From: Cochliopodium minus
Lineage: Eukaryota > Discosea > Himatismenida > Cochliopodiidae
DNA: 20,925 bases
Assembly (NCBI GenBank): GCA_024220525.1
Contig: JAMYWO010000096.1
Span: 110,169-131,093 of the forward strand
Direction: 5' to 3'
Below the pieces are notes generated by a model that ran no database searches, had not been told where the DNA came from, and saw only the letters and a program-made list of their open reading frames with translations. Both the position numbers and the translations under genes were made by a program. Shown here in pieces: positions 1,425 through 20,030 of the stretch; position 1 is the stretch's first letter, and each line of letters opens with the position of its first letter.

Positions 1425-4139
1425 TTAATTTTTGTAATTTTTTTTTTTTTGAGCTTTTTCCTCTTTTTTCATTCTCATTCTCTCCTCTCTTTCCAATTTT
1501 TTTTTTAAAGTTTCTTCGGGAAGCTTCTTCATCTTTTTCTCCCAAGTGGAATAGTCATCAAAAAAAGAATCAGGTTTATTCAAAATAGGCAAGAAAGGAC
1601 GCTCAAAACAAAAGCAAACTTGTGGAAATTTAGTCAAAACATAGAGAGCTTTCATTGAGGTAGAAAGAGAAATTTTGTCGGGCAAAAATTTTTTTGAAGC
1701 AAAAATCTTATTCAATCTGATTTTGGGCAAATAATTGGTCTTGATTTTCGATGAATAATATCAATTGAACAGTTCTAGGAATGTTTTTGAAAAAAAAATT
1801 TTAAAATTTTTTTTATTTTTATTTTTTTATTTTTTTATTTTTATTTTTACAAAGTATCTAGGAACATATTTATAGTCTTGATCACATGAACGAATCAACA
1901 AAATTTTGATTACCTGATCTTGAAAGAGTCCTTTTCCTTTGACTGAATGGATCAAATCGTCCAAGTCGCAATTCATCAAGTTATCTTTTCAAATTTAAAA
2001 ATTAAAAAAATAAAAATGATAAAAAATAAAAAAAATAAATTTAAAATTTTTTTTTCGAGATTAATTAATATACCAATAGGTATTTCTATTCCCAATGACT
2101 GATACTTTTCCCAAGCTTGATCACTTATCTCTCTAATGTTAACCGTTCCATCTTTTAAATTAAAAAAATTTAAAAAATAAAAAAAAAATTAAATAGTAAA
2201 CAAGAAACAATTTAAAAAATAACTGAGATTACCTATTTTATTAGGAAATTTGGTTTCGAGCTGATCATAAAATTTTTTGAAGACAAAAGTCAAAAGTCTG
2301 ATGGAGCTGAAAGAATATCTTTTTTCTTCAACGAGAGTTTGTTCCTCTGTAATCGATGGTCTTTTGAACATTTTCATGTTGAAATCATTATCTTCAGAAT
2401 CACATTTTTTTTCTTTTTCTTTTTCTTTTTTACTGAAATCAATTTGTTCTGTGAAAGGAATAACTTTTGTTTTCTTTTCTTTAATTTTTTTTTCTTTTTC
2501 CTCAACTGAACTTCCCCTTCTAAAAAAAAAAATAAAAATAAAATACCAAATCAAAAAATACAAAATCAAAAAATAAAACCAAAATAAATAATATAATAAT
2601 CAAAAGTTACAATAAAATCAAAATGCAAAAATAAAAAAACAAAAAAACAAAAAAACAAAAAAATGAATATTCAAAAAATATTCTTAAAAAAATGAAAAAA
2701 TAAAACAGGAAAAGAAAAAGAAAAAATTAAAAATAAAAATAAAAATATTAAAAAAATCAAAAAAAAAATATTCTTAAAAAATAAAAATGATTAAAAATTG
2801 AAAAAAAAATGAAAAAAAATAAAATACAAAAAATCAAAAATCAAATTTTAAAAAATCAAAAAAAAAAAGAAATTACTTTCTTTTGTTGTCCTGTTTTTCT
2901 TCTTCATGAGGATTCTCTAATTCGATATCTTTCTTTTTCTGCTCCAAAATTTTGTGAATAAGTTGAGAAATGAGCTGTGGAAGAGAAAGTAGGGAAAAAG
3001 AAGGATGCAAGGACAACTCCTCTAGGTATCTATTCACCACAAACTCTTCATCTTTGTTTTCGAACAAGAAATCAACCAATTTGTTGCTTTTAAGGGCACT
3101 CGGAAAGAAAGGGAGAAGCTTTTTTGTTGTTTCAAATTCGTAATCATTCATCATGTTTTGGTCGCATATATTCAACATCGTAAACCTGAGATATTTGGAG
3201 AAGAGATATTTCAAAAGAAATTTCATGTTTAAAATTTTTTTTGACAATTTTTTTTATCAATTTATTAATTTTTTTTAATTTATATTAATATATTAAAATT
3301 TATATATTCATATCTGTAATGATATGGGAACTATATTTGAAAATTGATCTATCATATTTATAATTATAGATTTTTATTTTATTTTTTTGCTTATAAAGAA
3401 TTGAATTTCGTTTATTTTACCACATTTGGGAATCTTTATCCTCATCTTTATTCTTCATTTCCATAAAGAATGGAAGCACAATTCTCCTTGTTTCGAAACT
3501 CATCATGATAGGAACATCTACATATGGTCCTTCTTTTGCATTGAAAAGAACATTGAGATTCAGTATATCATCTTCTTTTGTGATGGAATGCAAGGAAAAA
3601 AGATCTTTCAATTCATTTGGGATTGAAATGAAATAATTTGTGGAAATCAATATCGAGGAGATTATAAAATCAAATTGATCCATTTCTTGATTTGATTGAT
3701 TCATCAATTCTCTTATTTCCGAATTTTCTGAATTTTTCCTTTTTTCGAATGATTTGATGGTTTTTTCGTGGAGATTTGTTCTTGTTTCTTCAAGATGGAG
3801 GTAAATCAATTTACCCAATGTTTTGCATGTCATTCCCAATGCAGCAATTGATTCAACAGGCAAGAATTTGAGGAGATATTTATGAATTACTTTGGGAAGA
3901 TGGAATAAAGAAATCTCTTTTCCTAATTCGATTGGTGTTTCATTTGATGGATGAAAAATCTTTTTTATTTTCAAAACATTCTCTTCCAATTTCGAATAAT
4001 TATCCTTATAATGATCAATAACTTTACTCACATCAATCTTTTTTTCTTTTGTGGGCTTCTTTCTTTTTATTGGTTCATTGGAATCAGATGAAGAATCTGA
4101 TGAAGAATATTTCTTATTTTCATTTTTCTTTCTGGGCAT
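1425..4139 (-). CDS. F-box family protein, copy 1 of 3 (six exons)
   Basis: The gene runs from 4139 down to 1425. Exons are 4139-3421, 3185-2877, 2519-2233, 2151-2074, 1984-1851 and 1739-1425, giving about 613 residues and ending in TAA. Residues 11-35 are Ser/Lys-rich and low in complexity. An F-box lies at about 79-118 (FHLPKVIHKYLLKFLPVESI, then a Cys/Leu-rich helix), implying binding to Skp1 in an SCF ubiquitin ligase. Conserved blocks unknown to me follow: LVDFLFENKDEEF (exon 2), a charged linker plus FVFKKFYDQL (exon 3), WEKYQSLGIEIPI (exon 4), IKILLIRSC (exon 5) and KALYVLTKFPQ with PFLPIL (exon 6), then a Lys/Glu tail. The TAA after exon 1 is part of the GTAAAA donor; all three copies share this phase-2 junction. 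The last exon could begin further upstream by homology with copy 3, but an in-frame TGA there suggests the AG at 1741-1740 is used. Confidence 0.75.
2520..2876 (-). other. Long low-complexity intron 2 of F-box copy 1
   Basis: This 357-bp intron lies between exons 2 and 3 of the first F-box copy. On the sense (-) strand it is T-rich, with repeated AAAAAAAC/GTTTTTTT units near 2632-2661. The donor is GTAATT and the acceptor is TTTTAG. I see no coding sequence or RNA gene in it. It is much longer than the matching introns of copies 2 and 3. Confidence 0.65.
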
Positions 4140-4212
4140 TTTCTTTTTTGATTTTTTTTTTTATTTTCTTTGAATTTTTTATTAGATATTTTTTTTGAGA
4201 AAGAAAAACCCT

Positions 4213-6697
4213 TTAATTTTGATTTAGAACTCTTTTTGAAGCAACAGATCTTTTTATAGTAGCATTGACAATTTTTTTTTCAGCTTCTTCCAACTCTCTT
4301 TTGATTCTCATCCTATCTCTTTTCAAAGTTTCTCGAAAAGTGTTCTCAGGCAACTCCCTCATTCTCTTTTCCCAAAAAGAATAATCAAGAAAAGAATTAA
4401 TGTCGTCAAGAATAGGAAGAAAGGGACGATTTAAAGAACGTGTAACTTGTGGAAACTTTGTCAAAACGTAGAGAGCTTTCATTGAGGATCCAAATAAAAT
4501 ATTTTTGGACTGATTTTCTTGATATCTTTTTTTGAACTTTAGTCAAATAATTGTTTTTGACATTTCTTTTGTATTTTGTGAGATTCATTGATTTTTCCTA
4601 TTTTTCAAAATTGAAAATATTAAAAAAGAATAAAAAATATTTTTTTGCTGGTTTTTTTTAAAATGTGTTTTTGTTGTTGTTAATTTTGTTATTTTTTTTT
4701 TTTTGATTCTTTAATTTTCTCATTATTATTGTTTAAAAATATTTTTGTGTTTTTTTTCTTTTAATGTGTTTTTTTTTGTTTTTTATTTTTTGTGTCTTGT
4801 TATTTTTTTTTTTACGAAGCAAATGGGAACATATCCTTCATTACTGCACGAACGTATTAGTAAAATTTTGAGGATTTGATCTTGAAATATTTGTTTTCCT
4901 TTGACAGAATTGATTAATGCGTCAATGTTTTTATTCTCTAAATTGTCTGAATAAAAAATTAAAGTAAATATAAAAATAAAATAAAAATAAAAATGACAAA
5001 AAATTTACCAATAGGTATTTCTATTCCCAATGACTGATACATTTCCCATGCTCGATCACTTATATCTCTAATGTTAACCGTTCCATCTAAAAAAAAATAA
5101 AAAATAAAAAATAAATTTAAATTTAAATAATAAAATTTAAAAATAAAAATAAATAAAAAATAAATCTTCGTAAAAATAACTTTTAAAATAATTTATAAAA
5201 AAATTTTGTATTGCCTTGTTTCTTTGGAAATTTGGTTGGGAGTTGATCATAAATTTTTTTGAAAATAAAAGATAAGAGGACGATGGACTTAAAAGCTATT
5301 TTTTTTTCCACTACAATAGGGACTATATCTTCCCCTTCTATCTCTACTTTTTCAGAATCTTCCTCACCTTCGTTGTTTTCTTCTAAGATGATATTCTCTT
5401 GTACAGTTCTTTTAAAGAAAGAAATTAAAAAAAAAGTATTAAAATAAAATAATAAAATAAAATAAAATTAAAAATAAAAATGAAATATTTAAAATAATAA
5501 AATATTAAAATACTAAAATAAAAATATCAAGAAGTATTAATTTATAAAATAAAAATAAAACAAAAATAAAAAATATGGATAAGTGATACTCGGGGGTTTT
5601 GGAACTTTCGCTTTTGATTTGAGGAGAAGTATTCTCGAACTCTAGATCTTTTTTTTTCTGCTCCAATATTTTATGTGTTAATTGAGAAATGAGTTGAGGA
5701 AGAGAAAGTTGGGAAAAGGAAGGATGCTCAGATAACTCTGTCAAAAAATGAGTGATCACAAACTCTTCATCTTTGTTTTCGTACAAGAAGTCCACCAAAT
5801 TTTTGCTTTTAAGTGCACTCGGAAAGAAAGGGAGGAGTTGTTCGACACTTTCTGACCTAACTGGGACAATATTATCTCCATTCTTGTCAAATAGGAAAAT
5901 ACTATTTCAAATGAATGGTTTGATAAAAAGGTTAAAAAAATTTTTATTTTTGATTTTATTTTTTTGATTTTATTTTTTTTGATTTCAATTTTTTTTATTT
6001 TTTTATTTTACCTTTTAATTTCGTTTGATTTTACTGATTTTCTGATTTTTTTTGATGTGTTGAAAGGTTCTACATTAGTTTTTTTTATTGTGTAGTTTAT
6101 CTTTATCGGAACATCCACATAAGGTCCTTCTTTTGCATTGAAGAAACAATCGAATTGGTGATATAACTTTTCTTCTCTCAATGCAGGAAAGGAAAAGAGA
6201 TCTTTCAATTCATTTGGGATTGAATAGAAATAATTTGTGCAAATCATTATCGAGGAGATAATATTATCAAATTGAGTCATTTCTTGATTTGATTGTTCAA
6301 TTATTTCTATTAATTCTGAATTTTCTGAATTTTTGCTTTTTTCGAATGATTTGATGGTTTTATCGAGGAGATTGTTTCTTGTTTCTTCAAGATGGAGGCA
6401 AATCAATTTACCCAATGTTTTGCATGTCATTCCCAATGCAGAAATGGATTCAACAGGCAAGAATTTGAGGAGATATTTTTGAATTACTTTGGGCAAATGG
6501 AATAAAGAAATCTCTTTTCCTAATCCGATTGGTGTTTCATTTGATGGATAAAAAATCTTTTTAATCTCCAAAACATTCTCTTCCAATTTCGAATATTTAT
6601 CCTTATAATGATCAATAGCTTTACTCACATCAATCTTTTTTTCTTTTTTCAATTTTTCCTCTCTTTTTTTTGGTATTTTCCTTTTTACTTCAATCAT
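4213..6697 (-). CDS. F-box family protein, copy 2 of 3 (six exons)
   Basis: The gene runs from 6697 down to 4213. Exons are 6697-6012, 5901-5590, 5408-5215, 5086-5009, 4946-4816 and 4536-4213, about 574 residues. The first in-frame ATG is at 6697; the open frame extends 27 bases further upstream as lysine codons without an ATG. The F-box block (FHLPKVIQKYLLKFLPVESI) and every later conserved block match copies 1 and 3. Two oddities stand out. Intron 3 appears to start with GC instead of GT (CAAG/GCAATA). In the last exon, the segment homologous to the start of copy 3 exon 6 (NLTKYKRNVKNNYL, from 4597) is one base out of frame with the KALYVLTKFPQ block. Using the AG at 4538-4537 avoids the shift. 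Only 73 bp separate this stop codon from the ATG of copy 1. The gene could be intact with a shorter exon 6 or slightly decayed. Confidence 0.72.
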
Positions 6698-6924
6698 TTT
6701 CTTAATTTTTTTTTTTTTTTTCAATCGAATTATTGATGTTATTTTTAAATTTTCATTTTTTTTTGAAAATGATTTCTAACATCACAATCTCTAATTTTGA
6801 ATCAAAAAAAAAAAAGTTAAATAACTTCAAATAAAATAAAGTTTATGCTTTCTTATCAAACATTGTGTAAAAATCCAACTTCTGATAACTTTATTAAAGC
6901 TAAGTTTTATAAAAAAAAAAATAA

Positions 6925-9172
6925 TTATTTGATTATCCTTTCAATGTATTCAGATTTTTCTTGATTTTCAAGTTTCTTTCTCAAAGTTTTTTCTGGCCTC
7001 TTTTTCAACTTTTCAACCCAAGAGCGATAATTACTAAAAAAAGAATCAGTATCATCTAAAATAGGAAGGAATGGGTAGTCCAAGCAAAAAATAATTTGTG
7101 GGAACTTAGTAAGAACGTAGAGAGCCTTGATTGATGACCCAATATAAATTTTGGGAGGTAATGTTTTTTTGGTCATCCTCTCTTTCCTTTTGTCTTTGTA
7201 CAAATAATTTTGTTGTATTTTTAGTCTGTATTCGGTGAAATTTTTATTCTTTTTAAAATAGAATAGAAAAATAAATAATTTTTAAATTTAATGAAGGAAA
7301 AAGAAAATAAAAATTTTTTTAAAAGAAAGGAGATTTTTACAATATCTGAGGGGACATAATTTTCTCCATGACAAGAACGAATGAACAAAATTTTTAAAAT
7401 TTGTTCCTGTAATACTTGCTTTCCTTTGGTTGAATGAAGTAAATCATCCATATCCCTGCTGCAAAGATTATCTTTAAAAAATTAAAAAATAATTTTTAAA
7501 AAAATTAAAAAAAAAAATAAAATCATAAATTAAGATTAAAAATTAAGATTAAAAATTAAAAATTAAAAATTTTGAAAAATTTTACCAATAGGTATTTCAA
7601 TTCCTAAAGACTGATACTTTTCCCATGCTTTGTCATTTATTTCTCGAATGTTCACAGATTCGTCTAATTCAAAAGATTTAATCAATCAAAAAAAGAAAAA
7701 AAAGAAATTTTTTAAAACAGGATTACCATCTTTCTTGAAAGGAAATATAATTTGAAGTTCATCATATATTTTTCTAAAAACAAAAGTCAAAATGTTAATG
7801 GAACTAAAGTAAAACCTCTTTTCTATTTTTAAAAAAGGTGTAATGTCCTTTTTTCTTTCTCTCTTGCTCAATTTTTTATCTTCTTCATCGGAATTACTTG
7901 TTTCTGAAGAAGTTTCTTCACTTGACTCCTCATCATCTCCTTCTACCCTTAATTTTTTAGATTTTAATGTTTCGCTGCTATCTCTCCTTTTGATAAGAAA
8001 ATTAAATCAAAAAATAAAAAATAAAATAGAATATTTAAAAATAAATAAAAAATATTTAAAAATAAATAAATAAAAAAATAATAATAAAAAAATAATAATA
8101 ATATTAGTAAAAATTAAAATTTTAAAAAATAAATTACTTTCTCTTATTAGTTTGGTTTTCTTCAAAAGTATTCTCAAATTTGAGATCTTTTTTCTTCTGC
8201 TCCATTATTTTATGTGTTAATTGAGAAATGAGTTGAGAAAGAGAAAGTTGGGAAAAGTAAGGATGCTCGGCTAACTCTGTTAAATAATGAGTGGTCACAA
8301 ACTCTTCATCTTTGTTTTCATACAAGAAGTCCACCAAATGATTGCTTTTGAAGGAACTTGGAAAGAAAGGAACAAGTTGTTTAATATTTTGAGAAATAAA
8401 AGTAGATTCATTCTCATTGTACTTATCGTATAAATTCAATCTTTCAAACAAAAACAAAAAAAAAATTTTTTTATAAATATATTTTCATAGAAAAAAAAGA
8501 TTACTTTGAAAACTTGATCTCCAATTTTTTTCTTTTCATTCTAATGTTTGTATATATGGGCAGTCTTTCATATTTGATGATGAAGCTCATCATTATAGGA
8601 ACATCTACATATGGTCCTTCTTTTGCATTGAAAAGAACATTGAGATTCAGCGTATAATCATCCTTTTCTGTGATGGAATGTGAAGAAAGAAGATCTTTCA
8701 ATTCATTTGGGATTGAATAGAAATAATTTGTGAAAATCAATATCGAAGATAAATGTGTTTCCAATTGAGCCATTTCTTGATTTGATTGATTCATCAATTC
8801 TCTTATTTCCGAATTTTCTGAATTTTTCCTTTTTTCGAATGATTTGATGGTTTTTTCGTGGAGATTTGTTCTTGTTTCTTCAAGATGGAGGTAAATCAAT
8901 TTACCCAATGTTTTGCATGTCATTCCCAATGCAGCAATTGATTCAACAGGCAAGAATTTGAGTAGATATTTATGAATTACTTTGGGAAGATGGAATAAAG
9001 AAATCTCTTTTCCTATTTCAATTGGTGTTTCTTTTGATGGATAAAAAATCTTTTTTATTTTCAAAACCTTCTCTTTTAAATTTGAATAATGATCGTCATA
9101 ATGATCAATAACTTGACTCACATCAATTTTTTTGGGAATTCTTTTGAATCTCTTTGAATTAGTTGTAATCAT
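6925..9172 (-). CDS. F-box family protein, copy 3 of 3 (six exons)
   Basis: The gene runs from 9172 down to 6925. Exons are 9172-8505, 8440-8138, 7986-7727, 7663-7586, 7471-7341 and 7248-6925, giving 587 residues. Every junction is in frame with GT donors and AG acceptors, so this is the cleanest of the three copies. The F-box is at about residues 58-97 (FHLPKVIHKYLLKFLPVESI). Exon 2 carries LVDFLYENKDEEF and a Leu/Ser/Gln-rich helical block. Exon 3 has an acidic Ser/Glu linker, then FVFRKIYDEL. Exons 4 and 5 carry WEKYQSLGIEIPI and ILKILFIRSC, and exon 6 carries KALYVLTKFPQ and PFLPIL. The F-box implies a role as a substrate receptor for an SCF-type E3 ligase. The rest looks like a helical, possibly substrate-binding, region of unknown family. 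It is divergent from the GTPase-like gene, with 141 bp between the two start codons. Confidence 0.78.
8031..8104. repeat. Short AT tandem repeat in intron 2 of F-box copy 3
   Basis: A roughly 21-base unit (TATTTAAAAATAAATAAAAAA) occurs about twice and is followed by AATAATAAT-type triplets. It sits inside the intron between exons 2 and 3. It looks like simple replication slippage with no coding content. Confidence 0.55.
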
Positions 9173-9313
9173 TTTTTTTTTTTTGAATCTTCAACTTTTC
9201 TTCAATCTTTTTTCATTTGATGAATCTAATTTATGCAATACTGTTCAAGAGTTCTCATCTATAACCTTGGTGATTAAAAACAATTGAACAGTTCATTTTT
9301 AAAATATAAAAAA
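9173..9313. promoter_or_regulatory. Divergent intergenic region between F-box copy 3 and the GTPase-like gene
   Basis: These 141 bp separate two divergent ATGs and must hold both promoters. A perfect 9-bp inverted repeat is present: ACTGTTCAA at 9240-9248 and TTGAACAGT at 9284-9292, 35 bases apart. The right arm sits within CAATTGAACAGTTC (9281-9294), which also occurs at 1762-1775. No TATA-like element can be singled out in such AT-rich DNA. Confidence 0.4.
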
Positions 9314-12300
9314 ATGGATAGAGAAAATATATCAATTAAATTTCTCCTTGTGGGAGATAAAGATAGTGGTAATATATAATCTAATTTTCTTCTTTTCAAT
9401 TGATTAAAATATCATTAATTAACAAGGAAAAGCAGAATTGTAAATATTTTTAATTTGCTTAATTCTTTCTCATTTACTGAAATCTGCATCAAATATCAGT
9501 TTAAACCTATTTTGTGGAGATAATGTAAATTTACATAAAAATTATATTTGTCTTAATTTGTCTTTAATATTTTCTTATTATAGAAAGAAAAGCTGAATAA
9601 AAAGCTCCATGTGGATGATAAAGAATATTTGGTTGAATTTCTTGATAGTGTTAAATTTCTAAAGCATTTTTAAAATTTCATATTTTTTTATCAAATCTTT
9701 AAATATAAAAATTAAAGGATGATGAAGGTGAATCACTAAGATATAATACGATAATTCAATATTTAATCAATTTTTAATTAAATAGATATATTCGAAGAAA
9801 ATATATTGAAGAGTGAAGCATTTGTATTCATATTTTCACTGAAATCAAAATCATCATTGACATATCTTCAAAACATGCTCCCAACAATAGAAAAAGTGAA
9901 AAACAAAAAAATAAAAAACATCCCAACCATCCTATTCGTAAAAACAGGAGAAAATCCACAAGAAAGAGAAGTATCAGCACCACAAACAGAGCAGATGAGC
10001 AAAAAACTGGGAAGCAAGGTCATAGAAATTAAAAACAAAGAAGTAGAAAAATCAGAAGAAGATTTCCTCAATATAATTAAGATCCTAAGTGAAGAAAAGA
10101 TATCTTTTGTAGATAGTAGTGAAAACGTCAGCCTTTCTTTCTCTAAAGACCACAAGAAAGTGGAAAACGATGAAGAGAAAACAAATTTTGTAGTTTCTAG
10201 CTTGATAGATATGAACAGAAAATATATATTGAGAATAAAAGCTAGATTTGGTGATGTAAACTCTTATTTGTTCGGTATTTTTTTTTAAAAAAAAATTGTG
10301 TTTTAAAATATTTCCTTTTATTTTTTTATTTAAATAATTCTTTTCATTTAAAATAAACTTTTTAATAGGTATTTGTGATTCTTCACCAATATCTTTTCAA
10401 GAAAGCAAAGATGAAAACCACATTTTTTTCAAGATAAATGGCAGTGGACTAACCAACGCTAAAGATTTCAAAAATCAGTCCTTTTCTGTTGTCAAAGATG
10501 AAGTGCAAGATTTTACACTATTCTTGGATTTGAGTAACACATATGTAGTAATATACAACAATACACATAACAATAATTTTCAAGCATCTGTATCTGTTCC
10601 TAATCTCGCCAAAAACTTTCGATTTTCGGTTTATTTTAACAAAAGAGCAGATTTCTGCGAAATTTCAGAGTTTTTTACAAATGATATTTTTCATTTTCAT
10701 TTAAATGATACCAACTATAACAATTTTGAATTATCCAACAATAAGTCTTGTGCCACAAAATACAGTGGACAAGAAAACTCAAGTTATGTTAGTCTTACAA
10801 GCAAAAACACATTCAGATTTTCAACAGTATCTGAAGGAAGTGAAAGATTATTTCTTAGGTTATTAATAAAATCAAATCCGAAAAAGCCAGTTCAAATTGG
10901 TATCACTCCCTTGACTCCTTTGTTTATAATCTTAAATTTTAAACTTTAAAAAAAAAAAAAATTTTTTTAGGATTTTGTGATCATAAAGAGGGGAAATCTG
11001 ATAATGAGATCAAGAAATGGGATCACACTATCGTTTTTTGTGAAAAGTCTGAGTTGGATGGTGAGCAAGAGGTACTCATTCTCCTCGATTTTATCTCCAA
11101 AAAGTACCAAATCGTCAATTCAAACATACAAGATTTTTCAAAGCTTCTCAATTTCAATATTAAAGCAAATTTGGTTAATTTTTGTGCAAGTATTTCGGAA
11201 AATGGTGATTATGTCAAAATTGGTAAAAAAAAAGAAAAATAATAAAAATATTTTATTTTATTTATTTTTGCTTAGTTGAAACAAATACTTTCAAATATGA
11301 ACTCCAAAAGGATATTTCTTACCACAACAACTTGATCACTTTTTCTCTTGGAAAAAGGGCAATTACTTATAAGGGTACTGGTGATCCTCTTTTCGTTGTA
11401 TCAAATCCAATTCTCCCTTATGACTCTTTAACCATTTTGTTTCACGTGACATTTCAAACAAATAATAAAAAAAACTTTTCTTTTGGTAAAAAAAAATTTT
11501 GTAACATTTTAAATTTTAAATAAATTTTTTTTCTAAAAAAAAAGGGATTATTCCTTTGGATTTTGGTGAAACAAAAAATTTGGAAGATAATGACAAGAAA
11601 ATAGAATTTGGAGCAGTTAATGAAGAAAAAAACAAGTTCAAAATCAAAGAAAAACAAAACAGTCACTTGATTATTTCCGTGAATTTTCCAAAAAAAATCG
11701 TTCATGTCTTTGATGTATCTGATCCTAAAAACTCATGTGTTATAGATAATATCCCACCAAATGGTATCCGTCTCTTTGTAAAAATATCTCCTTCTGATAT
11801 TTTCTCTATCAAAAACACTCTTCTTTCCCACCTCAAAATTGAAGAGATCCAACAAATCATTTTCGATTCAACCAAAAATGTTAAAGAATATGACTTTACT
11901 TCTACCATGTTTCTTTCTGAGAACTCTTTTTATAAACTTCCTTATACCACCTCCCAAAACACTTTTTCCAATCTTGAAACTCTCTCCTCTGAACAACAGA
12001 ATGTTTATGTAATCAAAAAAGGAATTTTGGAGAAGAAAGGAGGTTAGTTTGTTTCTAATTTTTATTATTCTTTTTTTTTTTATTCAAATATAAATTAATT
12101 TCATTCTTTGATTTTCTAAAAGGAGGAAAAATCTTTGGAAAGAATAGTTGGAAATCCAGACTTTTCATTTTTACTGAATTTCAGATTATTCTTTGTGATA
12201 CTAAAACTAACACTCCTAAAACTACTTTTGATATGAATGATGTAACCAATGTATCGGAGAGTGAAGATAACAAAAACAAGGATAAGTTTATTTTTAGATT

Positions 12301-12394
12301 AGAAATCAAAGGAAAAGAATATTTTTTCAGTTGTAAAGATAATAATGAAAGAGGAAAATGGATTTCAACAATAAAAAGGAATATCAAAAAATAA
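9314..12394 (+). CDS. Ras-like pseudo-GTPase, three SPRY-like repeats and PH domain protein
   Basis: There are eleven exons: 9314-9368, 9427-9439, 9500-9524, 9584-9649, 9718-9727, 9786-10274, 10369-10899, 10971-11222, 11276-11485, 11545-12042 and 12123-12394. They sum to 806 codons plus stop. Residues 1 to about 165 follow the Ras fold: IKFLLVGDKDSGKAEF (P-loop), VDDKEYLVEFLDS, SEAFVFIFSLKSKSSL, then IPTILF and EREVS. The key nucleotide-binding residues are altered: Ala replaces the P-loop Ser/Thr, no Gly is seen in the DxxG position, and NKxD has become VKTG. Residues of about 170-650 form three repeats, each with a front half (SLSFS / SLTSKN / ITFSLG) and a back half (LFLDL / LILLDF / LIISVNF). 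This resembles SPRY-type beta sandwiches. Residues from about 705 form a PH domain (VIKKGILEKKG ... RGKWISTIKR), suggesting phosphoinositide or membrane binding. It is likely a signalling scaffold. The exon map before 9786 is the least certain part. Confidence 0.75.
9427..9439 (+). other. 13-bp microexon in the GTPase-like gene
   Basis: Thirteen bases between AACAAG and GTAAAT supply the end of the P-loop (Gly-Lys-Ala-Glu plus part of Phe). The junction phases on both sides (1 then 2) fit the neighbouring exons. Exon 3 (9500-9524, 25 bp) and exon 5 (9718-9727, 10 bp) are similarly tiny. The 13-bp exon is supported by the P-loop it completes; the 10-bp exon 5 rests mainly on frame. Confidence 0.6.
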
Positions 12395-13516
<1,122 letters not shown>

Positions 13517-13785
13517 ACCTTTATCCAAAATTGAAACCTAAATAAATCATTTTATCCCTAAATTTACTTTTTTTATTGTGAAAAAAAACAAAATTTGATT
13601 TAAATTTCATCCAAATATAAATTTTTTTTTTCAGTGTATTTATTTTTTCCTTTTTCAAACATAGAAATGAAAGATAAATATTATTCTGAAATGAAAATGC
13701 AAACAACAAACATTTTGTTAATCTTCCAAAAAAAATAAAAAAAAATTGTTCAAAGATTCATATTTCAAAAAAAAAAAAACCAAAA

Positions 13786-14814
13786 ATGGACAATATTTGG
13801 AATGTATTTAAGCAAAGAACATTAGAAATACAACATATCTTTAATAATATGTTGGTACAAAGCTATAATCAATCTACTCAACCAAGGGAAAATATGGTAT
13901 TCAACGATTTAGAGGATCAACAAATACAACAAGCAATGGCATTATCAATAGGACAAAATGTGCAAAATATACAAAATTATAGAAATGATATTTTTCCTCC
14001 ACCTCTCCCACCAACCCCAAATGAATATTTAAGAGAGCAAAATGATATGATGCAGGAAGATGACACCCCATATGAAGATGATGAAGATTTGTTGAATTTG
14101 GCATTGAGAGAAAGTATGAAAGAAGCAAAGGAAAGGGGAGATATGAAAGATGATGAAAGAGAGCCCAACAATACAAATAATAACCTTAATCAAAACAATA
14201 ATAACAATAATAATAACTTCATATTTGAAAATTTTGGCAACATTAACAATGAAAAGGATAATGTTGATGAGATCATCAAGCAGATCAGGAGGGAGAGAAA
14301 TGAAAAGAAGATTAGGGAGCAGAGAAATCAATTGCTGATCGAACAAGAGGAGGCCTATCAAGAGTCCCTCCAACAAGACAACCTCAAGAAGTTGGAAGAG
14401 GAGAAGAAGATCCAGCAGGAGATGGAGCACCAAAAGGAGTTGGAACAAAAGAAGGAGATCGAACAAGCCCTCCTCCTCTCCAAGGAGCTATTCAAAAAGA
14501 ATAAGATCGAAAAAGTTCTCAACAACATCCCTCTTGAACCTCCAAAGAATGAGAAAGATTCTGTCGAGATTCTCGTTCGTTTGACTGATGGCACTAAAGT
14601 CTCTCGTCGATTCAAACATGATGATACTCTCCAACATTTGCACAATTGGATCGTTTCTTTGTCTGAGGAGAGGAGCATTCCTGAGATCTTTTCCATTTCT
14701 CAATCTTTCCCTAGGAAGAAGTTCACTGATTTGAATCTCTCTTTCAAGGAGTCCAATCTTGTCGGATCTGTTGTTCTTTTGATTGAGAATGAGGAAGAGG
14801 AAGATTTATATTGA
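13786..14814 (+). CDS. UIM and UBX domain protein (putative p97/Cdc48 adaptor)
   Basis: This intronless gene encodes 342 residues. Two ubiquitin-interacting motifs are visible: about residues 41-57 (DQQIQQAMALSIG) and 97-115 (DEDLLNLALRESMKEA). A proline-rich segment (PPPLPPTP, 71-78) lies between them, and an Asn-rich tract follows at 129-144. Residues of about 160-245 are a highly charged Glu/Lys/Gln coiled coil. It contains a further UIM-like stretch, EIEQALLLSKEL (224-235). The C-terminal 85 residues are a UBX domain, starting near VEILVRLTDGTKVSRRF. They include the FPR loop (SFPRKKF, 307-313) through which UBX domains dock on the p97 N domain. The order UIM, coiled coil, UBX resembles FAF1/UBXD-class adaptors, but no thioredoxin-like UAS domain is present. 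It probably delivers ubiquitylated proteins to p97 in the cytosol. Codon use becomes clearly richer in G/C-ending codons after about 14240. Confidence 0.92.
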   Translation: MDNIWNVFKQRTLEIQHIFNNMLVQSYNQSTQPRENMVFNDLEDQQIQQAMALSIGQNVQNIQNYRNDIFPPPLPPTPNEYLREQNDMMQEDDTPYEDDEDLLNLALRESMKEAKERGDMKDDEREPNNTNNNLNQNNNNNNNNFIFENFGNINNEKDNVDEIIKQIRRERNEKKIREQRNQLLIEQEEAYQESLQQDNLKKLEEEKKIQQEMEHQKELEQKKEIEQALLLSKELFKKNKIEKVLNNIPLEPPKNEKDSVEILVRLTDGTKVSRRFKHDDTLQHLHNWIVSLSEERSIPEIFSISQSFPRKKFTDLNLSFKESNLVGSVVLLIENEEEEDLY

Positions 14815-15347: not shown

Positions 15348-17277
15348 ATGAAATTTTTTTCTTTTTCAACAATTTGTTTCATATTCTTAGCATTTATAGT
15401 TGTCAAATCAATAGAAAAAGGTAAAAAGAATTTTAAATTAAATTTTTAAAATCACAATTATTTTCATAACTATTTGAAAAAAAATTTTAATACTTCAAAT
15501 AATGAGATGAATGAAAGATGTGTCTTCCTTTAGAAACTTTTCAAGGAAATTTAAAAATATTTTTTTTCTAAAAGGAGAATTCAAAATTAAAGATAATAAA
15601 GTCACAAAGGGAACACATGAGATAAATGAAAAACATAAAGATTGGAAAGAATTGAATGTCGAGATTCGAGAAAAAAAAGATAAAAATGAAGAAATGTTCA
15701 CTGAAAAAAAATATATAAAAAAAAAATTTAAAGGGACTGATCGATCAAGATTCGATAGAAAAGAATTAACTAAAACAGGAGAATTGAGTTTGGATGTGGA
15801 TTTGGAAAACTACAACAAAATAACCTTGTTGAGCGGGATTTTCGATCTATTTTACCGCTTAGATAAAATAGGAGGTGTCATCGATTTCTATGCTGTTGCA
15901 AATACATCTGGATATGCAGGGATTGGATTTACATCAAAACCAGAAAATCCAATGAAACATGCAGATATCTATCTGGTTTCCAATAGCTCTATCGATGAGA
16001 TAAATATCACCGACAGATTTTCAACTCGGAGCAACACCCCTGTGATCGATACGGAGCATGGTGGATCTGATAATATTTTGGGATATGGGATCTACAGAAA
16101 TCCATCGATGCCTCTCCTCATTTTTAGATTCACAAGGAGTATAAACACATGTAAACAGATTTTTTTATTGTTTTAATTTTTAATAAATTTTTTAAAAATC
16201 AAAAAATAAATATATTAATTAAAAAAAAATTATTTTAAAATTTTTCTTAAAAATTTTTTTTTAAAAAAGGTGATGATAATGACATTGAAATTAATGAGGG
16301 TTACATGAACCTGATTTACGCTTTGAACAGAAAAACGACCAACCCCTCTATTTCCCACACAGACTCTGGTGTGGTGATCATCAATCTTTTTACTAACAGA
16401 ACCAAACCTGACATCAGAAGGGCAGCACATGGAATATTGATGTTTCTGGCATGGTCAGTTTTCATTGTAAATATCATTAATTTTTTATTTTTAAAAATTT
16501 TCATTAATATTTTTCATTTTTTTTTTTTTAAAAAAAATTTATTGAATTTATTTCTAAAATTCATTTCTAAAATTTATTTCTAATTTTTATTCATTTTTTA
16601 TATTTTTAAAATTAAATTTGTATTATTTAAATCTAATTTAGATGGGAGGTATTTTTGTTGCAAGATTTGTTCCAAAAAATTATAAATGGTGGTTTCCCGT
16701 TGTATGAATCATTTAGATTAATTTTAAATTAAACTTTATTTTTTTAAAAAAAAAAAGCACATTTCAATGACTTGTTTTGGTGTTGTGATGAATATTATTG
16801 CGTTTGCGATGTCCTTGAATATGATCCAAAATAAAAGAAAATTGGTTGGATTTCATGGTAAAAATAAATAAAAAAATTATTACATAATTATTGATGAAAT
16901 ATTGTTAGATGTAATAGGATACATAGTTTTTATTATTTCACTTCTCCAAATATTATTTGGTGTTGTTTCCGACATGTATTGGAGATATAAATCCAAAAAA
17001 GGAGAAAAGCCTGCCACATCAGTCTTTGATTTAATTCACTCTTGGTTTGGGAGGATAGTTATAATGTAAATTTTTTTATTCATTTTTTATTCAATTTTCC
17101 ATTAATTTTTTTTTATTAAAAAGACTTTCTATTGTAAATATATTTTTTGGGATTTATGAGATAAATGCACATTTTTCTTACTTTATTTTATTTGGTGTTT
17201 GGGTTGCTTTGTTGATAATACTTTTCATAACATTCGAAATAATAAAGAGGATGAAGAAAAAAGTTTCAAAGTACTGA
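15348..17277 (+). CDS. DOMON domain-cytochrome b561 membrane protein (FRRS1-like reductase)
   Basis: Seven exons (15348-15420, 15575-16150, 16270-16466, 16642-16701, 16758-16857, 16909-17065, 17124-17277) give 438 residues and a TGA stop. Residues 1-20 (MKFFSFSTICFIFLAFIVV) are a signal peptide. A Lys/Glu-rich spacer (about 25-95) follows. A DOMON domain then runs to about 265 and should face the lumen or outside; it includes YAVANTSGYAGIGFTS and HADIYLVS. The C-terminal half is a b561 core. The four conserved haem-ligand histidines are present at residues 270 (AAHGILMF), 303 (HISMTC), 335 (VGFHDVIG) and 379 (LIHSWFG). About five or six membrane helices are expected, with a basic cytosolic tail. 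This architecture matches ferric-chelate-reductase-1-like and plant CYB-DOMON proteins, which carry electrons across a membrane. The spacer is the unusual part. Confidence 0.92.
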
Positions 17278-17365: not shown

Positions 17366-20030
17366 TTATTTATTTTGGTGTATGTGACAAAGATATTTGA
17401 TAATGTTGATAATAATCCCTTTAACCATCCATTTCATCTCATTATTTACACTTTGATTTCTGCACTTGCAAATGAGAAGAAGGGTAGTTATTTGTTTATT
17501 CAAAAAAGGAATGTTGTAAAAATTTGAATCCCAAAACTGATGGTATGAAGGATTCCAATTAACTTTGTTGTTTAATATAAAATCTTGGAAAAGATATTTA
17601 AAGTGTATTTTTTCAAAATCAGCCAAAAGATAACATTGATAGTAATAATTCGCAGAAATTTCCAAATCTTTAAAAACAAACTTCCCATCTTTGTAGATTT
17701 CAGCTAATCTCTTCGTAGAATCAATGTGTTTGAAATTACTTGCATTTTCAAGCAATTCAACAGCCTTTGAAAAAAAATTTGTTGGCTCATCCAAATTTTT
17801 TTCATCAAAATTTTTCTCGGAAGAATTTTTTATCAAAGAAAAATTTTTTTCATTTAAATAAATATTTGCTAAAGAATACATTGAATTAACGTCTCCCAAA
17901 TTGATAGATCTTTCATACAATTTGATTGCATTAATGATATTTTTATTGGTACCATTCTCATATATTTGAGCAAGGTAATAAGTTGCTTCTATGTCTCCGT
18001 GTTCACTTGCTTTGTTCAAATAAAACTGTGATTTTTGGCTATCTGGTTCTATATCATTAGATGACTTATAAATGAGACCTAAATATCTATTTTTAAAAAC
18101 AAAAAATTTTTATTTTGTTAATTGTCAAAAAGTTTTATTTTTTATTTTTTATTTTTTATTTTTTATTTTTTATTTTTTATTTTTTATTTTTTATTTTTTA
18201 TTTTTTATTTTTTATTTTTCATTTTATTTTTATTATTTATTATTTTTATTCATTCTTATTTTTTATGTTTTTATGTTTTTATGATTTTTATTATTCATTA
18301 TTTTTATTCTTTTATGATTATTTTATTTTACTGTAATGTTTGAGGGAGGGATCATCTTCATTTTCAGCAAACAAAAGTTGTTTGATATTTTCCAAAAGTT
18401 CATTTTCGAGTTGCTTGGAGTAGTTTTGGATTGCTTTATTCGCTTTTTGCATTCTCTCGATGCTTTGACATTCGAAAGCCAACAAATTTAGTTTTTTGAG
18501 CAAAATTGCTCTATCTTGAATAGTACTTTAAAAAAAAAATAAAAATTTTTTGTAATTTAAAAATAATTTAAAAATAAGTAAAAATAAAATAAAAAAAATT
18601 AGTAAAAAATTAAAATTTTATAAAATCTAATAAAATATGTAAAAATTAAATTAAAAAATGAATATCATTCATTTTAAATTTATAAATTTAAAATCAAATT
18701 TAGAGGATGAAAAATAAAAGTTAGAACTATTATTTAATTTTTGATAAAATTCAACAAAAAATTTAAAAAAAAAATAATGAAAAAAAAAGTAAAATTGAAA
18801 AATTTTTTTTTACCCAGAATCACTGAAGATTGGAGAATCGGATTTGCCTTTTAAGTTCATTTCAGAATAATACTCCATGATATCAGAAGCTTCCGTAGTA
18901 GAAATACGTTTGGCGTCAGCACCCGAAAGGCGATCTCCGATCTGGACTGCGATGTTCGTCACTTTGGACATGCGTTTGTCCAAATCCAACAATTCAGAAT
19001 GATATGAAGAAAAGTTGAGCTGGAAAATCTTCATTTGTTTTTGGTACAGCTTTTCTTCCTCTTCACACTTTTCTGTAAGCGCTGTATTTTTTTTTTTTAT
19101 AAAAAATTGAGAAATATTTTAAAATTTGTTTATCAATAAATAATTTATCATGTTATTCTGAAAAAAAATTTGTTTAATTATATATTCTCTCTTTTGCTTA
19201 TTTTTTTATCATGTTATTCTATTTTTAAATTTAATTCTAATTTATTATGTTTTTGAATTAAAAAATTAATCAAAATAATTAAATTAAAAAAAGACAATTA
19301 TAGAAAAGAATTCACTCAAAATTTGGAAAGTAAATCAAAAAAAAAAAAAGAGAAATTATCAAAATAATAAAATATTAGGTGGTTAAAATTGAAAGAAATA
19401 ATAGCAAAAAAAATTGAGTGTATAAAGTGATAATGAAAGAAATGATTGATTTAAAATTGAAGATTGATTTATTTATTTTACCTTGTATTTTCTCATTGAC
19501 GTTTTCATTGAGTCCGTTCAACTGATTCAATGCCTCTTGGAAGGTTTCGATGAGTGGAGATGGATCGAAAAGAAATTCTTCTTTGCCACTCAGGTTCATC
19601 CCCATTTTTATGTCGGAGATTCTGTTCACCTTCTTTTTTCCTCCCTTCTTCTTTTCTTGATCTTCTATCCTTTCCATTTCGCTCACTACAAAGTTGTGTG
19701 ATAGATTTTCTAACAAATTTGAGAGATCAAAGTTTTCATGCTTTGGATATAAGTTAATGTAAGTTAGATTTCATTTTTTAAAGAATTTAAATTATAGATT
19801 TGAGATATATGGAATATTAACAAGGCAGATTTATTTCAATCTTTGAATATTTCCAAAAAAGAAATGGATCTCCAAATTTTTAATCCTTCAGATTATATTT
19901 GAGGTTTATATATTTCAAAATATTAAACCATTTGCACATGATTTAAGTTCAAATTTTTTTTTGAGAATATTTTATTGATAGAGAATGTTTTAAATACCTG
20001 AAATTGTTCTTCTTTGAAGTTTTTGATCAT
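17366..20030 (-). CDS. Sec10 (EXOC5) N-terminal region fused to Sel1-like repeats
   Basis: Five exons on the - strand (20030-19998, 19740-19482, 19081-18814, 18525-18332, 18078-17366) sum to exactly 489 codons including TAA. Residues 1-251 follow the N-terminal coiled-coil part of the exocyst subunit Sec10: MIKNFKEEQFQ, FDPSPLIETFQEAL, then ELLDLDKRMSKV, IGDRL and TTEASDIMEYYSEM. The human EXOC5 equivalents are FDPKRLLEEF, ELDEHIS and GDQLEGVNTPRQRAVEA. After exon 4 the expected bulk of Sec10 is missing. Exon 5 encodes about four Sel1-like (TPR-related) repeats instead, such as ASEHGDIEATYYLAQIYENG and GDVNSMYSLANIY. Exon 5 has no in-frame ATG before its second repeat and joins exon 4 in phase at TTTAG/GTCTC, which argues for one chimeric gene. 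It could act in vesicle tethering or as a regulator competing with full Sec10. It converges on the b561 gene, 88 bp apart. Confidence 0.75.
18137..18219. repeat. Seven-base microsatellite (ATTTTTT)12 inside an intron
   Basis: Adenines occur exactly every 7 bases from 18137 to 18214, giving about twelve perfect ATTTTTT units. The tract sits in intron 4 of the Sec10-Sel1 gene, between 18079 and 18331. On that gene's sense strand it reads as A-rich, opposite to the T-rich sense strand usual for introns in this window. The surrounding intron holds only more simple T/A sequence. Confidence 0.95.
19082..19481 (-). other. 400-bp intron 2 of the Sec10-Sel1 gene
   Basis: This stretch between exons 2 and 3 has a GTAAAA donor and a TACAG acceptor. 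It contains a repeated element around TTTTTATCATGTTATTCT: near copies at 19143-19157 and 19203-19220. No reading frame or RNA gene is visible. Confidence 0.6.

Follow-up and report, generated by a model that had tools for sequence, protein, structure and literature searches.

We analysed a window of 20,925 nucleotides from Cochliopodium minus (assembly GCA_024220525.1, contig JAMYWO010000096.1, abbreviated C96; C96:110169-131093), the window being this whole stretch. It contains a gene that almost certainly encodes a Ras-like domain, three related repeats and a C-terminal PH domain in a single protein. The Ras-like domain is very probably a pseudo-GTPase, and the repeats and PH domain appear to form a tail that Roco-type kinases in this genome also have (44.65 Mb in 598 contigs were searched). 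The A+T content is 75% in the window and rises to 86% in the ten introns of this gene, the features of which are as follows.

9314..12394, forward strand: the whole gene, 11 exons, 806 amino acids, rebuilt from the sequence.
9314-9368, 9427-9439, 9500-9524, 9584-9649, 9718-9727, 9786-10274, 10369-10899, 10971-11222, 11276-11485, 11545-12042 and 12123-12394, forward strand: the exons of the gene.
9338..10084, forward strand: Ras-like domain (residues 9-156, introns included) with degenerate G motifs, from Pfam Ras (E 3.8e-7) and motif alignment.
9786..10274, forward strand: junction exon, a single open frame spanning the later half of the Ras-like domain and the opening half of repeat 1, from Pfam and paralog comparison.
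10127..10676, forward strand: probable SPRY-like repeat 1 (about residues 171-322), with one phase-1 intron inside it, from profile comparison.
10725..11280, forward strand: probable SPRY-like repeat 2 (about residues 339-482), with a phase-1 intron at the same site of the repeat and a second at the repeat end.
11329..11816, forward strand: probable SPRY-like repeat 3 (about residues 499-641), with a phase-1 intron at the same site of the repeat.
12009..12385, forward strand: PH domain (residues 706-804), with one phase-1 intron inside it, from Pfam PH (E 1.4e-13).

Rebuilding the gene reproduces the 806-residue product exactly, with ten GT-AG introns of 53-94 nt and a frame that stays open across all 2418 coding bases up to the stop. 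Both terminal domains are recognised by Pfam above the curated cut-offs (Ras, 30.3 bits against 21.6; PH, 51.7 bits against 25.1). A search of PDB sequences with the 806-residue protein gives weak Ras-family matches, the best being Rap2A (E 0.0007). The initial annotation had predicted that one chain holds a Ras-like domain, three SPRY-like repeats and a PH domain, and the exact rebuild, the two Pfam matches and the junction exon described below bear out that order; the same domain search gave no SPRY match in the repeats. The 11-exon model is also the best path of a small exon-intron program, although part of what the program was trained on came from this gene and wrong strands scored highly as well, which makes it weak support when taken alone.

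The placement of the small N-terminal exons is less certain than that of the rest of the gene. We enumerated the splicings of this part (GT-AG introns of 35-170 nt, at most five of them, in frame into exon 9786-10274) and obtained 1163 in-frame products, 1129 of which had the length needed for scoring against a Ras profile from which this gene had been left out. The initially annotated N-terminus ranks second among the 1129, with 77.2 bits against 77.7 for the top-scoring splicing, from which it differs by three residues that the latter lacks. The Pfam Ras score gains nothing from the N-terminal exons, being 30.3 bits with them and 30.6 bits from exon 9786-10274 alone.

The passage from Ras-like domain to repeats lies within this last, uninterrupted exon, and for this reason a reading as two separate genes was rejected. 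The frame of the exon by itself matches Pfam Ras with E 2.9e-7, and residues 163-219, the first half of repeat 1, match the starts of repeat 1 in two of five paralog models introduced below (RG, E 1e-6; K1, E 6e-6); the other three gave nothing better than E 0.21 (chance-level matches to K3 and K4, none to K5). It might still be supposed that the model has joined two neighbouring genes or describes a decaying pseudogene, as several of the N-terminal exons are very short (10-25 nt) and the model is predicted from DNA alone. We regard this as extremely improbable, given the open frame over 2418 bases and the position of the Ras-to-repeat junction inside one open exon, and two properties of the tail given further on speak against it as well.

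We aligned the head of the protein with eight Ras-like sequences from this genome, of which one has an incomplete start. The P-loop reads GDKDSGKA, which departs from GxxxxGK[ST], notwithstanding retention of the lysine and the glycine before it. Switch I is gone, as 21 residues separate the P-loop from the next strand where a clear Ras of the same genome has 30, and DSDDED, KTGE and KNK stand at the places of DTAGQE, NKCD and SAK in that Ras. The last two of these replacements are in exon 9786-10274 and are independent of any choice of splicing. Nor do alternative splicings repair the others: none of the 1129 tested yields a P-loop of the form GxxxxGK[S/T], and among the 582 in which the anchor after the P-loop is preserved there is no DxxG or DPT-type switch. 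Because P-loop, switch I, DxxG, NKxD and SAK are all lost and no splicing tested restores the first three, the domain is very probably a pseudo-GTPase without its nucleotide-binding and switch motifs.

The initial annotation had instead described a nucleotide-switch-like module, and this part of it is not supported. A working, if atypical, small GTPase, which would make the protein a GTP-regulated membrane adaptor, could draw on the Pfam Ras match above the cut-off and on the retained glycine and lysine of the P-loop. With KTGE for NKxD and KNK for SAK in an exon free of splicing choice, and with switch I and DxxG missing, we consider a working GTPase very unlikely. In another frame of 9427-9524 (forward strand) we see GKS and, after the P-loop, a helix-like peptide; scored with the Ras profile this peptide reaches 0.3 bits, and in none of the 1129 splicings does this GKS form part of a P-loop.

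The three repeats are homologous to one another, with probabilities in local hhalign comparisons of 96.5 (repeats 1 and 2), 94.5 (1 and 3) and 89.3 (2 and 3). Their wider relationship is less plain. Local hhalign was used to compare a repeat-1 profile of 8 sequences with a profile of 13 SPRY domains from the same genome, the controls being 60 column shuffles for each of four queries and lectin, PH and Ras profiles. Repeat 1 scores 29.7 against SPRY (30.1 without gappy columns) over about 114 collinear columns, at a probability of 35-39%, the shuffle maximum being 14.4 and the control profiles reaching 15.8 (lectin), 10.8 (PH) and 10.8 (Ras). All repeats pooled score 22.0-23.7, with a shuffle maximum of 13.6. 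With moderate confidence we take the repeats to be SPRY-like, and to this extent the SPRY-like identity given in the initial annotation is likely.

Several observations weigh against the SPRY assignment. It rests on repeat 1 at the probability just given, while repeats 2 and 3 are marginal (17.7-18.1 against a shuffle maximum of 15.1, and 14.2-16.1 against 15.4), and the lectin control itself exceeds the shuffle maximum of repeat 1. Over curated cut-offs Pfam places no family, SPRY included, between the Ras and PH domains of the protein, so that the repeats differ from established SPRY/B30.2 proteins in falling under every such cut-off. A whole-tail profile matches 43 PDB sequences at E up to 10, and no SPRY protein is named among them; nearly all are explained by the PH end, and one is an agglutinin at E 1.7. 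The tail loci are also absent from the 52 matches of a genome-wide SPRY profile search, and the recognised SPRY domains of this genome that we inspected have different settings, for instance in tandem SPRY proteins or beside F-box-like segments assigned by eye. The repeats could accordingly belong to some other beta-sandwich family and owe their likeness to a general pattern of beta-strands, but we think this rather unlikely, as repeat 1 is collinear with same-genome SPRY domains at a score twice that of the best shuffle and nearly twice that of the lectin control.

Other searches added little on the repeats. The third repeat region of RG has a sub-threshold Neuralized match (E 0.034), and an NCBIfam search of the tail returned nothing useful. 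AlphaFold2, run on a single sequence for the one exon that holds half of repeat 1 and half of repeat 2, gave a predicted local distance difference test score (pLDDT) of 33.7; the same exon has no relatives in viral and prokaryote contig collections, where absence means little.

The PH domain is clearly recognised, with PDB matches at E 0.0073 for the 806-residue protein and, for PH chains, at best E 3.9e-9 for the tail profile. It contains a K-x11-K-S-R stretch, counted by eye, that fits a basic motif linked to phosphoinositide binding.

To find related tails elsewhere in the genome we searched with those of the window gene, K3 and RG; the numbers of matches are lower bounds, and the gene models of the paralogs are predictions. 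There are at least seven further tail loci: K1 (C96), K2 (C185), K3 (C325), K4 (C351), K5 (C87), RG (C20) and RG2 (C129). K1 lies on the same contig and strand as the window gene, about 15 kb upstream, with a tail identity of 40%. Pfam finds kinase domains in K1 (E 5.7e-20), K2 (E 2.9e-25) and K3 (E 4.7e-25), and in K1 and K3 the kinase is followed by three repeats and a PH domain; K2 leaves its contig before the end of the tail. K4 (L033) keeps three repeats behind a kinase-like domain that is under the cut-off (E 0.0038) and by eye has HGG and NFK for HRD and DFG, so that it looks like a pseudokinase; no PH domain was found in it. RG and RG2 instead carry RhoGAP domains (Pfam, E 1.8e-27 and 1e-24), and no PH domain was found within the frames read, the RG frame ending early and the RG2 model stopping short of the gene end.

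T1, a tail fragment on C185, starts close to a gap in the assembly and could supply the end that K2 lacks. A single N stands in a low-complexity tract just before T1 (L030 4143; C185:30642). As K2 extends past the beginning of this contig, K2 and T1 could be parts of a single gene that the assembly has broken up. A PH-only match on C117 was set aside, the protein there having several PH-like segments by eye.

The kinases that bear this tail have the order of Roco proteins (LRRK1/2, Dictyostelium Rocos): Roc, COR-like and kinase domains, with ankyrin repeats or leucine-rich repeats (LRR) before them. The window gene, on the other hand, lacks Roc, COR and kinase, and Pfam gives no Roc or COR match in it. 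The order in the K1 model is ankyrins, MORN-like segments (by eye), Roc, lectin, COR-like, a zinc-ribbon-like segment (by eye), kinase, repeats and PH. In K2 a Ras-like head, matched by Pfam at E 4.8e-24 on the second exon, precedes ankyrins, Roc, lectin and kinase, and K3 and K5 have LRR-like starts, from a sub-threshold LRR match in K3 and by eye in K5. Roc exceeds the Pfam cut-off of 27 in K2 (31.3 bits) and K3 (31.1 bits), ankyrins are found by Pfam in K1 and K2, and a legume lectin in K2 and K3. The lectin is situated between Roc and COR in tail-bearing Roco-type kinases, at the following places.

L029 885-2207, reverse strand: legume-lectin domain between Roc and COR.
L066 4134-4841, forward strand: legume-lectin domain between Roc and COR.

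Searching the genome for legume lectins gave eight matches: the kinase loci K1, K2, K3 and K5, and four further contigs, where one match is under the cut-off. When the Roc-lectin-COR region of K2 was searched (81 matching places listed; 55 of 201 candidates scored), many of the listed matches had Roc and COR parts close together. K1, K2, K3 and K5 were matched in both the Roc and the COR regions, and among the 81 listed matches the lectin part was matched only at these four kinase loci. With Roc and COR parts matched close together at many of the listed places, and the lectin part at four of them, Roco genes form a large family in this genome, and those that carry the tail make up part of it. 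The start of K1 (L068, L065; C96:93979-96990) is Hsp70/actin-like by eye and forms one open frame of 1004 amino acids together with the ankyrins; Pfam does not recognise the Hsp70/actin-like part at E 0.01.

We consider it highly likely from these comparisons that the tail of the window gene is of Roco-type origin. Some points detract from this. The COR evidence is weak, with COR-A at E 0.00083 in K2 and E 0.002 in K3, both under the curated cut-off and after the lectin insert, and the kinase, LRR and PH of K5 were assigned by eye and homology and not by Pfam. In favour of the relationship, a tree of eight tails, with the root chosen on RG and RG2, places the window gene with K1 and K2 at 82/84; K3 and K5 join at 100/100. 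The value of 82/84 is below the 95/80 mark of the program, however, the order within this group is open, K2 fills 44% of the columns of this tree, and K4 and RG have long branches.

The end branch of the window tail in this tree is 0.62, not longer than the 0.76 of K1, as expected for a tail still under constraint. A phase-1 intron stands at the same site in 17 of the 18 modelled repeats of six genes (repeat 1 in five of six, RG differing; repeats 2 and 3 in six of six each), and these 17 sites coincide in a single column of an alignment of the repeats with one another. A tail branch no longer than that of the intact K1, and intron sites common to the paralogs, are the two further properties that speak against a joined or decaying gene. 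All five introns in the tail of the window gene are phase 1, so that its inner tail exons are symmetric, which is the form expected of shuffled exons.

The initial annotation had thought the domain arrangement unfamiliar. A Ras-like head on the repeat array and PH domain stands as such, but repeats and PH are the C-terminal tail of Roco-type kinases in the same genome, and the new part is therefore the swapped head, best seen as one among several heads on related tails. The domain order, the single gene and, as the most likely family, SPRY thus remain from that annotation, and the nucleotide switch does not.

A plausible explanation, to which we give an even chance, is that the window gene is a kinase-less relative of the Roco-type kinases, with a pseudo-GTPase head on a Roco tail, and acts as a membrane adaptor. 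The source of its C-terminal part would be a Roco subfamily with the order [ankyrin or LRR]-Roc-lectin-COR-kinase-SPRY-like x3-PH; the Roc-COR-kinase body is absent here, and the Ras-like domain stands directly before repeat 1. In this model, the PH domain would take the protein to a membrane and the repeats would bind partners that the tails of the Roco kinases also bind. The degenerate Ras-like domain would most likely offer a fixed protein-binding surface, binding a further partner without a GTP cycle. The protein might then scaffold its kinase paralogs or compete with them, a membrane adaptor that shares or competes for their partners being the simplest function, although we hold such an adaptor or competitor role to be slightly less likely than not.

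Alternatively, the window gene could have arisen when a full-length Roco gene, already carrying a Ras-like head of the K2 kind, underwent an internal deletion, in which case head and tail would always have belonged to one protein. The Ras-like domain at the N-terminus of K2 is itself degenerate, with a shortened switch I region and loss of DxxG and NKxD, the window tail groups with K1 and K2, and a tree test does not reject the grouping of the two heads as a clade (p-AU, the approximately unbiased p value, 0.277). By BLAST against the eight aligned sequences, however, the window head is nearer to C186a (65 bits; 40% over 130 residues), C186b (59 bits) and C442 (49 bits) than to the K2 head (48 bits). 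The best head tree, in which the window head has a branch of 2.55 changes per column, leans to C186a and C186b, at a support of only 65/54, and K1, the closest tail, has no Ras head. An internal deletion thus seems to us possible but doubtful. It also tells against a swapped head on a Roco tail that descent from a K2-like head is neither shown nor rejected.

The C186 locus (L036) that holds the best BLAST partners of the window head encodes two Ras-like proteins that have a P-loop shorter by one residue, an altered NKxD and a C-terminal extension. A genome search with the head listed 51 matches, mainly ordinary Ras-superfamily frames and the exons of the head itself.

Some features of the proposed arrangement have counterparts elsewhere. 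Roco proteins have diverse flanking domains, including RhoGAP, RhoGEF, RasGEF, GRAM and WD40, in the portions available of PMC6320773 and PMC6337361, and in those of PMC11378527 (2024) brown-algal Rocos show exon shuffling of phase-2 LRR exons and PH is among the flanks of Dictyostelium Rocos. A lectin between Roc and COR, or an end of three SPRY-like repeats and PH, goes unmentioned in the same portions of these three articles, and the word SPRY is absent from their main texts. We found no paper that brings Roc-COR and SPRY together in literature mostly outside subscription journals, which is weak evidence of novelty.

The AGAP (centaurin-gamma) ArfGAPs, so far as the excerpts of their literature go, resemble the window protein in combining a PH domain with a Ras-like (GTP-binding-protein-like) domain in a single chain. 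Unlike AGAPs, the window protein has no Pfam match to ArfGAP, and we know of no AGAP with SPRY-like repeats. p190RhoGAP differs from the window protein in family, domain order and tail. The likeness lies in its GTPase-like domains, which are termed pseudoGTPases within a large multidomain signalling protein (PMC5593906, in the part available).

More speculatively, the SPRY-like array, with or without PH, may be a portable docking module of symmetric phase-1 exons that this lineage has put after Roc-COR kinases, RhoGAPs and a pseudo-Ras alike. By this route the output of kinases, the inactivation of Rho and a Ras-fold decoy without a switch might all reach the same partners, and the window protein would be a kinase-less competitor. 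Roco proteins of the LRRK2 kind are studied because their flanks regulate the Roc-COR-kinase core. Here a flank appears parted from that core, with related tails on kinases, RhoGAPs and a degenerate Ras fold in one genome, which offers a natural route to asking what a Roco tail does without its enzyme. The known range would gain a likely Ras-family pseudo-GTPase and a lectin-containing Roco subfamily.

The window holds several other genes. Upstream of the window gene are tandem similar genes (3417-9190, reverse strand), whose open reading frames 3417-4160, 6008-6775 and 8501-9190 are alike by eye; 8501-9190 has a sub-threshold F-box match (E 0.0077) and 3417-4160 has none. Directly downstream (12827-13513, forward strand) is a polyubiquitin gene of three units with unusual residues, adjoined by a gene for a UBX-domain protein (13690-14811, forward strand; E 6e-15). 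Further on are genes for a DOMON-domain protein (15511-16173, forward strand; E 2.3e-11), where the next open frame is membrane-spanning by eye, and for a Sel1-repeat protein (17369-18109, reverse strand; E 5.5e-14).

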